Positions 32,013 through 48,469 of a stretch of DNA of 64,000 nucleotides are shown in pieces. The notes below the pieces were generated by a model, which made no database searches, was not told the DNA's origin, and was given only the letters and a program-made list of their open reading frames with translations. The stretch spans positions 1 to 64,000 of the forward strand of contig JAFSJY010000046.1 of NCBI GenBank assembly GCA_017449215.1, given 5' to 3'. Both the position numbers and the translations under genes were made by a program. The stretch's first letter is position 1; the number at the start of each line of letters is the position of its first letter. The stretch is from Acholeplasmatales bacterium. Lineage in GTDB: Bacteria; Bacillota_I; Bacilli_A; Acholeplasmatales; Anaeroplasmataceae.

Positions 32013-32105
32013 ATGTGTAAAGAAGAAATAGTAAAAAAAATAAAACCTGATGAGTTGAAATTTTTAGTAATAATTATATATAGAAATGCACTTTTGCTAT
32101 TTTGA
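32013..32105 (+). CDS. Possible 30-residue peptide
   Basis: ATG 32013 follows an excellent GAGGAGGAG site and encodes 30 residues: Lys/Glu-rich first half, hydrophobic second half ending YRNALLLF. It ends just before the first operator of the toxin-antitoxin module. It may be a real small peptide or the remnant of a longer gene broken before the module. No family recognised. Confidence 0.35.
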   Translation: MCKEEIVKKIKPDELKFLVIIIYRNALLLF

Positions 32106-32107
32106 TG

Positions 32108-32179
32108 GTGCAAAAATTGCACTTCAATAACAAAACAAGGTGCAAATTTTGCACTTTGGCATTGATTAAAAAGTGCAAA
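32108..32179. promoter_or_regulatory. Three phased GTGCAA operators of the HTH-MNT/HEPN module
   Basis: Two 15-bp palindromes, GTGCAAAAATTGCAC (32108-32122) and GTGCAAATTTTGCAC (32140-32154), are followed by a half site GTGCAAA (32173-32179). The starts are 32 and 33 bases apart, three helical turns, so bound dimers would lie on one face. The last site is in the promoter spacer. An additional TGCAC lies at 32087-32091. They are the obvious targets of the HTH domain of the downstream antitoxin. Confidence 0.7.
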
Positions 32180-32190
32180 AAAATTATAAT
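32162..32190 (+). promoter_or_regulatory. Promoter of the HTH-MNT/HEPN operon
   Basis: TTGATT (32162-32167) and TATAAT (32185-32190) are 17 bases apart, with the GTGCAA half site in the spacer. Confidence 0.7.
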
Positions 32191-32211
32191 TTAAGTGTGA
32201 GGTGATTATCT

Positions 32212-32688
32212 ATGACACTTAAGGAATTACGTTTATCTAAAGAATTAACACAAAATCAGGTAGCTGATTTAGTTGGGATTTCATTACGTTCTTATAAAGA
32301 GTACGAGAATGATATTAATAAAGTAAACACACTAAAATATAATTACATATATAATGAATTATCTAAATTTGATTTAATAGACGAAGAACATGGAATTCTA
32401 AAATTAGATAGCATAAAAAAAATTGTATCTAATGTTTTGAAGGATTATGATGTTGATTATTGCTATTTATTTGGTAGCTATTCAAAGAATAAGGCTAATG
32501 AGTTAAGTGACGTAGATTTACTTGTTTCAACCAATATTACAGGTATGGCATTTTTTGGTTTGGCGGAAAAATTAAGGGAATCACTTCGTAAAAAGGTTGA
32601 TTTACTTAATATAGAACAGTTAGTTAATAATCAAGTGTTGCTTAACGAGATATTAAGGAACGGTATTAAAATTTATGGAAAAGAATAA
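32212..32688 (+). CDS. HTH-MNT nucleotidyltransferase antitoxin (MntA-like)
   Basis: This 158-residue protein fuses an Xre helix-turn-helix (LTQNQVADLVGISLRSYKEY, 12-31) to a minimal nucleotidyltransferase domain. The catalytic pattern GSx10DxD is exact: Gly88-Ser89 to Asp100-Val-Asp102. MntA antitoxins AMPylate a tyrosine of the partner HEPN ribonuclease to silence it. The N-terminal HTH adds transcriptional control through the phased palindromes upstream. It overlaps the HEPN gene by 14 bases. Confidence 0.88.
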   Translation: MTLKELRLSKELTQNQVADLVGISLRSYKEYENDINKVNTLKYNYIYNELSKFDLIDEEHGILKLDSIKKIVSNVLKDYDVDYCYLFGSYSKNKANELSDVDLLVSTNITGMAFFGLAEKLRESLRKKVDLLNIEQLVNNQVLLNEILRNGIKIYGKE

Positions 32689-33007
32689 TCAGTTCTATCT
32701 AATTAAAACTATTAATGAGATAGATACTATATTGGAATATTCTAAAGATGTAAAAATAGAAACTTTAATAGAAAAACCAGTTATATTGGATGGAATTGTT
32801 TTTAGAATGATTCAAATGTCAGAGCACATGAATAATATTACTCAAGAATTCAAATTGGCACACCCAAATATAGATTGGATAAGTATCAAGGGTTTCAGAA
32901 ATAGACTTGTGCATAACTATGGTGGTGTTGATTTAAAGTTTGTTTACAATGCAATAAATGAAGATATTCCAAATTTGAAAAAAGAATTACTAGAGTTAAT
33001 TTCATAG
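32675..33007 (+). CDS. HEPN-domain ribonuclease toxin (HepT-like, DUF86)
   Basis: This 110-residue all-helical protein carries the HEPN catalytic motif RNRLVHNY: Arg75-x4-His80-x-Tyr82. Tyr82 is the residue that MNT partners modify in described HepT/MntA pairs. It should cleave RNA when free. Its overlap with the antitoxin frame keeps production coupled. Confidence 0.88.
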   Translation: MEKNNQFYLIKTINEIDTILEYSKDVKIETLIEKPVILDGIVFRMIQMSEHMNNITQEFKLAHPNIDWISIKGFRNRLVHNYGGVDLKFVYNAINEDIPNLKKELLELIS

Positions 33008-33017
33008 TAATAATATT

Positions 33018-33049
33018 GAGCAAATTTTTAAATCAATTTGCTCTTTTTT
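33018..33049 (+). terminator. Terminator after the toxin gene
   Basis: GAGCAAATT (33018-33026) pairs with AATTTGCTC (33035-33043), followed by six Ts. Confidence 0.8.
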
Positions 33050-33194: not shown

Positions 33195-33270
33195 TGGTGG
33201 ACCCTTGGAGACTCGAACTCCAGACCCACTGATTAAGAGTCAGTTGCTCTACCAACTGAGCTAAGGGTCC
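33195..33270 (-). tRNA. tRNA-Lys (CTT), copy 1
   Basis: The 76-nt minus-strand gene has acceptor GGACCCT/AGGGTCC, discriminator A, encoded CCA, D-loop AGCTCAGTTGGTAGAGC and anticodon loop CTCTTAA between ACTGA and TCAGT, giving anticodon CTT. It is identical in sequence to copy 2. Confidence 0.93.
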
Positions 33271-33296
33271 AAAATAAAAAGGAATGTCAACATTCC
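33271..33296 (-). terminator. Terminator between the two tRNA-Lys genes
   Basis: On the minus strand GGAATG pairs with CATTCC (33281-33296) and is followed by TTTTTATTTT. It would end transcription of copy 2 before copy 1. Confidence 0.65.
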
Positions 33297-33313
33297 TTTA
33301 ATCTTATAATTAC

Positions 33314-33389
33314 TGGTGGACCCTTGGAGACTCGAACTCCAGACCCACTGATTAAGAGTCAGTTGCTCTACCAACTGAGCTAAGGGTCC
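33314..33389 (-). tRNA. tRNA-Lys (CTT), copy 2
   Basis: This is a 76-nt gene identical to copy 1, 119 bases away, with encoded CCA and anticodon CTT. It lies directly behind the strong promoter at 33434-33462. Confidence 0.93.
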
Positions 33390-45230: not shown

Positions 45231-46193
45231 ATGAACAAACGTAATGCTTTTAGTAAGATGATATTATTATCATCTATTGCATCATGCGTATTATTATTTT
45301 CATGTGGTAAGTCAGCTACTGAGACTGAAGACTTAAATGGAAAAATAATCGAATTTGAAAATATTGGTGGCAAAACAATTGATTCTAATATACCAGCTAG
45401 CAAAACTTATTACTCTATGAGCGAGTATCAAGCATTAGATAAAGTATTAAAGTATGCTTATACATCACCAACAACTGACATAGAAACTAAGGAATCTCAT
45501 GAAGTAAAGATTAAATATGGCATAGGAGATGTATTATATAATCATATTAAAAAGTATGAAAATGAAGTTGAATTATATAATAAGAATCAAGAAATAAAGT
45601 TGTCAATTTTCAGAATGAGCTATCCAAGTCTAAATTTCTATGATATTGCTAAAGAGATAAAGGAATATCCATATTATGATCGTGAATTATATGATCGAGA
45701 ATTGTACATCACAAAAAAACCAGAGGGTACGAAAATTAGTGAGATCTGCCAAAAAGAAGTAATATATACTGAAACTAACACGTTAGAATATTATTTTAGT
45801 GAAAGCTTTAAATATGATAAATTAGAATTTATAGATACTATTACAAAAGACAAACTAAGTGCATTAGATTCAACTAATAAAGCGCAATATGGTATATTAC
45901 AATATTTTTTCCTGCTTGAACCTTCGAATGATTCTGATGAGATAATTGAATTTTGTCGTTTAGCTAATGAGGAAGGAAGCACTAAAGCGCCTACAAAAAA
46001 TGGAATAGAAAATATAACATGGCAAGCTGACAATTATGTTTTCCCAATCGCAAATATAAATGACCCTAATTTTGGAAAACGTCAAATTAATCATTCTGCT
46101 TTAAGAATGCTACCAAGTAGCTTAAATAGTGGTTTAACTTATGTCATTGAAGATAATAATGTTACCTTCTATACAAAAAAGGAGGTGGCATAA
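45231..46193 (+). CDS. Lipoprotein A1 of a four-member paralogous family
   Basis: This 320-residue protein has a lipoprotein signal (LLFSC, Cys25). The body shares long blocks with A2 at 46842-47795: the signal region MILLSS, IKKYENEVELY, QEIKLSIFRM, NTLEYYFSESFKY, ITKDKL, YGILQYFFLLEP, and a C-terminal ALRMLPS. A tandem DRELY-DRELY occurs near residue 150. No family recognised. Its TAA overlaps the ATG of B1. Confidence 0.8.
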   Translation: MNKRNAFSKMILLSSIASCVLLFSCGKSATETEDLNGKIIEFENIGGKTIDSNIPASKTYYSMSEYQALDKVLKYAYTSPTTDIETKESHEVKIKYGIGDVLYNHIKKYENEVELYNKNQEIKLSIFRMSYPSLNFYDIAKEIKEYPYYDRELYDRELYITKKPEGTKISEICQKEVIYTETNTLEYYFSESFKYDKLEFIDTITKDKLSALDSTNKAQYGILQYFFLLEPSNDSDEIIEFCRLANEEGSTKAPTKNGIENITWQADNYVFPIANINDPNFGKRQINHSALRMLPSSLNSGLTYVIEDNNVTFYTKKEVA

Positions 46194-46807
46194 TGAAGCT
46201 TTTTAATAAATTGATAGTAGTTTTTGCTTTATCATTTGTAGTATTTATGAGTTCATGTACTCCTGAATACGAGAACACAGTGAGAGAACCATATGCGCAT
46301 GATGAACGCATTGGCTTCTCTACTGAAAATGAACCACTTGAATCTCATAAAGTCACTATTTATTATGGAAAGAAGGAATCAGAAGTAGATACTATTTTAT
46401 ATACTTATGATTACATTTCTATTATTCGTTCTAGTCAAAGCGCTAACAATTATAATATGTATGGTACTAATGCCTTAAATGATTTTGACCATGATGTTGT
46501 ATTTACAATTGTAAGAAATGTATATGAATCTACTAAAAGTAAGGTATGCAAGAGTACTATAATATATCAAGAAACTAATAAATTTAGTTATTACATTTCA
46601 GATGGCTTTGTCTACGGTAAAAATTCTTATGTGGATACAATAACAAAAGATGATTTATTTGATAATAAGGATGGATATGGGTATATTGTTTATGATTGGT
46701 ATTTTACTGAGGACAGTTATAAGAAATCAAAATATAGCACAGAAAAGCTATATTATACAATTGACGATGATAAAATAACATTTAAAATTGCTAAACAAGA
46801 TAATTAA
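46193..46807 (+). CDS. Lipoprotein B1 of a four-member paralogous family
   Basis: This 204-residue lipoprotein (MSSC, Cys22) shares with B2 the blocks GFSTENEPLESHK/GLHTENKPLNKHE, DFDHDVVFTI, and LYYTIDDDKITFKIAK at the C terminus. It also shares NKFSYYISDGFVYGK, TITKDDL and GYGYIVYDWYF with the A proteins, showing that A and B have a common origin. Function unknown. Confidence 0.8.
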   Translation: MKLFNKLIVVFALSFVVFMSSCTPEYENTVREPYAHDERIGFSTENEPLESHKVTIYYGKKESEVDTILYTYDYISIIRSSQSANNYNMYGTNALNDFDHDVVFTIVRNVYESTKSKVCKSTIIYQETNKFSYYISDGFVYGKNSYVDTITKDDLFDNKDGYGYIVYDWYFTEDSYKKSKYSTEKLYYTIDDDKITFKIAKQDN

Positions 46808-46841
46808 TTTAATAAAAAAATTATATACGGGAGGTGAGCTA

Positions 46842-47795
46842 ATGAATAAGCGTTCTATTATTAATAAGATGATATTGTTATCATCTATTTCAGCATGTGC
46901 TTTGTTGTTTTCTTGTGGTAAATCAGAAACTGAAACAAAAGATAAAGAAGGTAATACTATTGAATTTGAAAACATTACTAGTGACGAAATAGAAATTAAT
47001 CGAGTTAGATGGTGGGATGAAGCTTATACTGTCTTAGAGGACACATATGCTATATCTAGAACAGATTCATTAGCTAATTCATCACATGATGTAAATATAT
47101 CTTATGGTATAGGAGATAGATTACTTAATCATATTAAAAAATATGAAAATGAAGTTGAATTATTTGAAAAGACTCAGGAGCTAAAGCTATCAATATTTAG
47201 AATATGCTACGCAAACTATCAAGATTTTTCTATTGGTCAGAATATAGCTAGAAATCCTTATTATAATGTTTATTTTAATAATCTACCTGATTATGAGAAA
47301 AAAAGTGGAAGAAATATAGAAACATATATTGATGGAACTAATTATGAGGATTATTATTCTAGAGTTGAAGTTTATAGTGAAATAAATAATTTAGAGTATT
47401 ATTTTAGTGATGATTTCAAATATGGAAAATTAGAAATAATAGATAATATTACAAAAGATGATTTAAAGCCATTTGTTAAAAGAGATTGTAGTGAAGAATA
47501 TGGATTATTACAATATTCATTTTTGCTTGAGCCTGTAGATAGTGATGATGAGATAATTAAATATGGTCGTATAAGTGATGGAAGTGGTAATGAGCGTACT
47601 TATACTAAAAATGGTGTAGAAAGTGTTAGTTGGAATAAGGGAGATTATGCATTTCCTCTATATGAAGCAAATGATGGAACAGTACAAGTAAATAGAGCTG
47701 CATTAAGAATGCTAACAAGCTATGTTAGTAATTGTATTCCATATGTAATAGAAGGAAATAATGTTACTTTTAATACTTCTAAGGAGGTGGCATAA
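46842..47795 (+). CDS. Lipoprotein A2 of a four-member paralogous family
   Basis: This 317-residue lipoprotein (LLFSC, Cys25) is the paralogue of A1. I place the start at ATG 46842, right after GGAGGTGAG, because that gives the same MNKR signal peptide as A1. IKKYENEVELFEKTQELKLS, NNLEYYFSDDFKYGK, ITKDDLKP, YGLLQYSFLLEP and ALRMLTS mirror A1. Its TAA overlaps the ATG of B2 exactly as A1 overlaps B1. Confidence 0.8.
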   Translation: MNKRSIINKMILLSSISACALLFSCGKSETETKDKEGNTIEFENITSDEIEINRVRWWDEAYTVLEDTYAISRTDSLANSSHDVNISYGIGDRLLNHIKKYENEVELFEKTQELKLSIFRICYANYQDFSIGQNIARNPYYNVYFNNLPDYEKKSGRNIETYIDGTNYEDYYSRVEVYSEINNLEYYFSDDFKYGKLEIIDNITKDDLKPFVKRDCSEEYGLLQYSFLLEPVDSDDEIIKYGRISDGSGNERTYTKNGVESVSWNKGDYAFPLYEANDGTVQVNRAALRMLTSYVSNCIPYVIEGNNVTFNTSKEVA

Positions 47796-48469
47796 TGAAA
47801 AGAATAAATAGATTTATTTTATGCTTTATTCTTTCTCTTTTTGTCTTTTTAACGGCTTGTGATTCAGTATCTAGCCATGGTATTGACGCTTATTATTCTC
47901 AACCAATAACAGCGTGGCAGGAGAATCAATATATAGGATTACATACTGAAAATAAGCCGCTTAATAAGCACGAGCTAGATATATATTATGGACTACCTTC
48001 AGGTGTTATTTTTGAGATATTTGAGAATTATGCTAATTATTCAGCGTTTACTGATTTTGATCATGAGGTTAAATTTACAATTAAAAGAAGAATATATGAA
48101 AGCTCTACTAACTCAGGTACTGAATATAAGGAAAAGGATATTTTTACAAAGGTTGATAAATTAAGCTATTTTACATCATATGATTTTGTATATGGTAATA
48201 ATTCTATTAAGGATATTATTTCATTAGATGATGTTTATAATAATGAAGGTGGATATGGGTATATTAAATATGATTGGTATTTAACTGAGGTAGATGGATC
48301 TAATTTAATAATGAACTATATAACTGATTGGGATTGGAATTTAAAATATGGTAAACATATTCCAGAATCTAGATTATCTGGAACTAGGTCAACAAGTGCT
48401 TTATACTATACAATTGATGACAATTTAATTACATTTAAAGTAGCTAAAAAGAGTACAATATACAGCTAA
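47795..48469 (+). CDS. Lipoprotein B2 of a four-member paralogous family
   Basis: This 224-residue lipoprotein (LTAC, Cys22) is the paralogue of B1. It carries LHTENKPLNKHELDIYYG, DFDHEVKFTIKRRIYESS, LSYFTSYDFVYGN and LYYTIDDNLITFKVAKK. It is slightly longer than B1 because of an insertion near the C terminus. It ends the quartet. Confidence 0.8.
   Translation: MKRINRFILCFILSLFVFLTACDSVSSHGIDAYYSQPITAWQENQYIGLHTENKPLNKHELDIYYGLPSGVIFEIFENYANYSAFTDFDHEVKFTIKRRIYESSTNSGTEYKEKDIFTKVDKLSYFTSYDFVYGNNSIKDIISLDDVYNNEGGYGYIKYDWYLTEVDGSNLIMNYITDWDWNLKYGKHIPESRLSGTRSTSALYYTIDDNLITFKVAKKSTIYS

Follow-up and report, generated by a model that had tools for sequence, protein, structure and literature searches.

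Type VII toxin-antitoxin systems are the closest described relatives of the locus analysed here. In HepT/MntA of Shewanella oneidensis (SO_3166/SO_3165) the gene for the minimal nucleotidyltransferase (MNT) likewise precedes and overlaps that for the HEPN toxin, and the motifs GSX10DXD and RX4HXY as well as the MntA fold are common to both systems. The Shewanella antitoxin SO_3165 is reported to be autorepressing and has no recognisable DNA-binding domain, and the two palindromes in its promoter are dissimilar (PMC4621449); the HepT/MntA complex contains two MntA per six HepT (PMC7641770). The HEPN-MNT system of Legionella pneumophila (8xeh), which provides the best structural match to our MNT domain, has a stoichiometry of 4:1 (PMC11586414). 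Its solved MNT of about 108 residues leaves no room for an N-terminal helix-turn-helix (HTH), the likeness being that of a short MNT, and the paper holds no promoter study. Makarova 2009 described type VII modules as being without an obvious DNA-binding part, with one possibly encoded in trans (PMC2701414). In the type IV system AbiE (AbiEi antitoxin/AbiEii) the nucleotidyltransferase acts as the toxin; in the present locus it serves as antitoxin to a HEPN RNase. The Xre-family type II antitoxins HipB, PezA and MqsA, which the HTH profile of our antitoxin matches, autoregulate through binding of palindromes and neutralise their toxins by binding, without AMPylation.

The locus described here, which lies in a stretch of 64,000 nucleotides (the window), is best regarded as a variant of the known type VII HepT/MntA system with a fused autorepressor. 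Unlike SO_3165, its MNT protein bears an Xre HTH and its operators are similar to one another and phased; the toxin has 110 residues, compared with 133 in Shewanella. Sequence comparisons make it probable that the locus is a horizontally moving cassette of the HepT/MntA type, in which the HTH-fused MNT antitoxin would both AMPylate the toxin and repress the operon cooperatively. The open-access literature that was searched, coverage of which is incomplete so that absence is weak evidence, contained no paper on HTH-MNT fusions.

The toxin and antitoxin genes and their operators

An earlier note on this DNA had proposed that an Xre HTH and an MNT domain are fused in a single protein, and profile searches bear this out: the 158 residues of the antitoxin comprise an N-terminal HTH_3 domain (30.7 bits against a cut-off of 23) and a C-terminal minimal nucleotidyltransferase (Polbeta, 53.5 bits; NTP_transf_2, 36.6 bits). 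The catalytic motif GSX10DXD spans G88-D102 (G88, S89, D100 and D102) and is kept in 80 of 82 antitoxin homologues, the two exceptions (L016 and L069) being loci with no toxin detectable downstream. The MNT model resembles solved MntA structures (8xeh, E 4e-7; 7bxo, E 3e-6), and recognition helix alpha-3 occupies residues 25-33 of the AlphaFold2 model (mean pLDDT 90.7). In one of the exceptional loci, L016, the orphan HTH-MNT has DxN in place of DxD, its toxin gene was not found, and an operator-like GTGTAAAAATTGCAC lies just downstream, between HTH-MNT and a response-regulator gene; domestication of this protein as a regulator is possible.

The toxin matches the HepT-like family PF01934 with 62.8 bits (cut-off 23.5) and carries RX4HXY as R75, H80 and Y82, the tyrosine of RNRLVHNY being residue 82 as the earlier note had it; because the toxin homologues were picked by this motif, the figure for its conservation among them is not independent. 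Profile comparison with solved HepT gives an E value of 1e-9, and Foldseek ranks the HepT fold first with a probability of 1.0, yet with a weak E value of 0.08. Against the NCBIfam equivalog models (NF047752/NF047751) both proteins are matched over the right region and score below the cut-off of 60, the antitoxin with 53.6 bits to MntA and the toxin with 35 bits to HepT, a threshold that pertains to the models and not to mechanism. As both scores fall short of it, the MNT/HEPN pair represents a divergent branch; the Pfam family cut-offs are exceeded. The first 14 nt of the toxin gene overlap the end of the antitoxin gene, and the order MNT then HEPN is common to the relatives. Given the structure and profile matches to MntA/HepT and the published homologues, AMPylation of Tyr82 is the expected mechanism: the MNT domain would add AMP to this residue and thereby silence the HEPN ribonuclease.

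Table 1. Features of the locus and of the window (nucleotide positions are those of the window)
Feature	Position	Strand	Details
Upstream right half-site TGCAC, fourth operator position	32087..32091	+	centre 32084, 31 bp from next centre
Operator O1, GTGCAAAAATTGCAC	32108..32122	+	6 of 7 pairs; centre 32115
Operator O2, GTGCAAATTTTGCAC	32140..32154	+	perfect 15-bp palindrome, 7 pairs; centre 32147, 32 bp from O1
Promoter TTGATT-17-TATAAT	32162..32190	+	
Operator O3, left half-site GTGCAA	32173..32178	+	in -35/-10 spacer; centre 32180, 33 bp from O2
Antitoxin, Xre HTH and MNT nucleotidyltransferase joined by flexible linker	32212..32688	+	158 aa
Predicted base-reading residues of antitoxin HTH	helix 25-33		R26, K29, E30
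Toxin, HepT-like HEPN ribonuclease	32675..33007	+	110 aa
Intrinsic terminator-like stem-loop and T tail, closes operon	33018..33043	+	
Lipoprotein-like unit copies	45231-46193/46193-46807 and 46788-47795/47795-48469		

The operators had been described as two perfect 15-bp palindromes and a half-site spaced 32-33 bases apart, with the last inside the promoter. This account holds for O2, for both of the spacings among O1, O2 and O3, and for the position of the last half-site within the 17-bp spacer between TTGATT and TATAAT; O1 is imperfect at one pair, and a fourth site in register had been missed, which adds a 31-bp step at the upstream end (Table 1). Because 31-33 bp amounts to about three turns of B-DNA, it follows from the spacing that all sites would lie on one face of the helix. 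O1 and O2 are the only occurrences of the pattern GTGCAANNNTTGCAC in the 2.05-Mb genome (0 for a control pattern), and chance palindromes are ruled out by this genome-wide uniqueness together with the arrays in homologous promoters. Just upstream of the operators, an ORF of 30 codons (32013-32105) that has a strong ribosome-binding site overlaps the fourth half-site; it was rejected as a part of the system, there being no convincing relative among 27 genomes of the genus. An RNA element in the leader was likewise rejected, Rfam having matched tRNAs only.

Operator arrays in relatives and the recognition-helix code

Relatives were taken from samples of the genus, family, order, class and phylum to which this genome belongs and from a bacterial genome collection, whose records labelled Lachnospiraceae, Spirochaetales and Coriobacteriia are metagenome-assembled and uncertain in their labels. 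Half-sites in homologous promoters are offset by 31-34 bp in 121 instances where shuffles predict 4.5, and 49 of 61 class I promoters, versus 2 of 183 shuffles, hold an array of four or more half-site arms at 31-34 bp, with spacings of 31 bp (11), 32 (60), 33 (39) and 34 (4). When 14 later loci are added, 64 of 75 promoters have at least four half-sites at steps of 30-33 bp; the overlapping steps of 32-35 bring 53 of the 75 to four arms, and non-overlapping steps at most 12. These promoters are related and the counts are not independent events; they are also slightly low, as a search for odd-centred palindromes misses the 14-bp sites of L053 and L069. The letters of the half-sites vary among clades while the spacing is constant, and arms within one promoter are mostly of the same variant, as predicted for selection by one protein. 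In 49 of 62 homologous promoters the -10 hexamer starts 4-7 bases beyond the centre of the final operator. Lone half-sites at the upstream end of the array face inward (right half) in 27 loci and outward (left half) in 4, and those at the downstream end face inward in 47 and outward in 0, a skew that overlap with the -10 box can explain and in part forces.

Variation in the half-sites is tracked by the recognition helix, for which homologues give the consensus L/R-R-S/T-Y-x1-x2-Y-E (x1, residue 29; x2, residue 30). Arg at x2 accompanies C at base -3 in 17 of 17 cases and other residues accompany A in 39 of 39 (56/56 together), and the same rule was right for 13 of 13 held-out loci fetched later, two of them near-identical. 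At base -6, Gln at x1 goes with C (17/17), Lys or Ile with T (27/27) and Arg with G (all five loci seen), and Lys at x1 also goes with G at base -7 (11/11 loci); at base -5, G never varies, nor does the preceding Arg or Lys. In a phylogeny of the MNT domain only, Arg at x2 changes at least four times and Gln at x1 at least six times and the bases follow, the well-supported branches carrying just two independent pairs per trait. Together with the arrays, which the comparisons make a trait of the family, this covariation, 56/56 plus 13/13 held out, argues strongly, if indirectly, that the fused HTH recognises the half-sites and represses its own operon. The bifunctional protein of the earlier note, repressor and predicted AMPylase in one, is thus well supported by domains, motifs, arrays and the covariation of helix and operator.

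The covariation amounts to a natural recognition code for an Xre helix, and it accounts for how paralogous modules could stay insulated. The same genome has a second HTH-MNT module (L002; G000:C54:11078-11539) with 55% identity, whose toxin is split over two frames by a frameshift. Its helix, RRSYQKYE, and its half-site, GCGCAA, both differ from those of the main locus, and so the two modules should not cross-regulate. In a distant subfamily (L091-L097 and L035-L042; 33-37% identity, helix ...TLRNWE) the promoter operators are TACCCCAATGGGGTA, and in clear cases these repeat every 31 bp.

Probable cooperative repression and a possible role of the toxin

We favour a mechanism in which HTH dimers bind the GTGCAA half-sites, as strong indirect evidence indicates, and in which dimers three helical turns apart would share one face of the DNA and touch through their MNT domains, either directly or by way of HepT, so that the array is presumably filled cooperatively. 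Judging from its position, the last half-site would place protein inside the promoter and turn the operon off; at low antitoxin the promoter would be free, and antitoxin would be made first and toxin second. Cooperative binding is likely because the spacing is conserved and the terminal half-sites face inward, suggestive of contacts between neighbouring dimers. A requirement for toxin was evaluated from its losses: of 71 class I loci whose antitoxin is intact, 26 have no toxin or a broken one (counts that come from antitoxin-based searches and say nothing on how often the antitoxin is lost), and arrays are intact in 19 of these 26 versus 39 of the 45 loci with an intact toxin. Persistence of most arrays after toxin loss argues that their upkeep does not need the toxin; as evidence against conditional cooperativity, which the data do not require, it is weak.

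These counts bear directly on a reading that we consider somewhat unlikely, in which HepT links two HTH-MNT proteins into a bivalent unit over two inward-facing half-sites, with repression governed by the ratio of toxin to antitoxin or by the state of AMPylation. The Shewanella (HepT)6(MntA)2 complex, which holds two MNTs (PMC7641770), could act in this way, and inward-facing half-sites at the ends of the array are what tiling bivalent units would leave; however, arrays outlast the loss or breakage of the toxin, the 4:1 stoichiometry in Legionella is not bivalent (PMC11586414), and a strict rule of even half-site numbers is not borne out, odd arm counts being as common as even ones. An extension of this reading, which we hold tentatively and think rather unlikely, is that HTH-MNT proteins define a sizeable type VII class that has gained little recognition: unmodified HepT would bridge HTH-MNT molecules over half-sites three turns apart, and promoter occupancy would report the modification state of the toxin. 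If true, one enzyme would read the level of free toxin twice, by AMPylation and by promoter occupancy.

At the other extreme, each palindrome might be bound independently by an HTH dimer, the regular spacing merely keeping the sites near the promoter. A full palindrome is indeed the standard site of an Xre dimer, and a few loci retain one full site and one half, but independent sites need no helical phase and would not tolerate lone half-sites. Retention of 31-34 bp steps although half-site sequences differ among promoters, and of 31-bp steps in clear cases in the distant subfamily with its unrelated operator sequence, makes such a simple autorepressor unlikely. Highly improbable is the further reading that the HTH is vestigial or of phage type and regulates something else, the palindromes belonging to another regulator: Xre domains are promiscuous partners, and the Shewanella MntA also binds its own promoter without an HTH (PMC4621449), but residue and base agree within the same locus in 69 of 69 cases and the operators are absent elsewhere in the genome. 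Here the DNA-binding part is fused to the type VII enzyme, and the array offers a direct means of testing for cooperative and conditional repression.

Related architectures with other partners were also observed. In a Clostridia MAG (L024:3464-5731) the HepT gene is replaced by that of a ResIII/DEAD helicase-HNH protein, the 8-nt overlap with the HTH-MNT antitoxin gene being unchanged, and in L021:1501-3231 the same type of HTH is joined to an AAA ATPase (AAA_14) with no MNT.

Genomic slot and distribution

Relatives at other genomic locations are similar at the DNA level over approximately 32117-33010, that is, the operators and the genes. The slot is flanked by a gene resembling that of CCA-adding enzyme on one side and a tRNA-Lys pair on the other; in G003, the nearest neighbour for this locus, a YhcG/DUF1016 nuclease gene fills it, and in G016 it is empty. 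The distribution is patchy, with relatives in 18 of the 55 genomes sampled from the family and in 67 of 395 in the class sample. Carriage by a prophage or plasmid was rejected, the neighbours being chromosomal housekeeping genes and no plasmid match having been obtained; a phage-collection record contains one full-length match. A self-contained, horizontally moving cassette is the best explanation, and taken jointly with the proposed functions of the antitoxin we judge it probable.

Two duplications elsewhere in the window were also observed. The tRNA-Lys(CTT) gene is present as a tandem duplicate at 33195-33389, double in G003 too and single in G016, and a two-gene lipoprotein-like unit is tandemly duplicated at 45231-48469 (Table 1).
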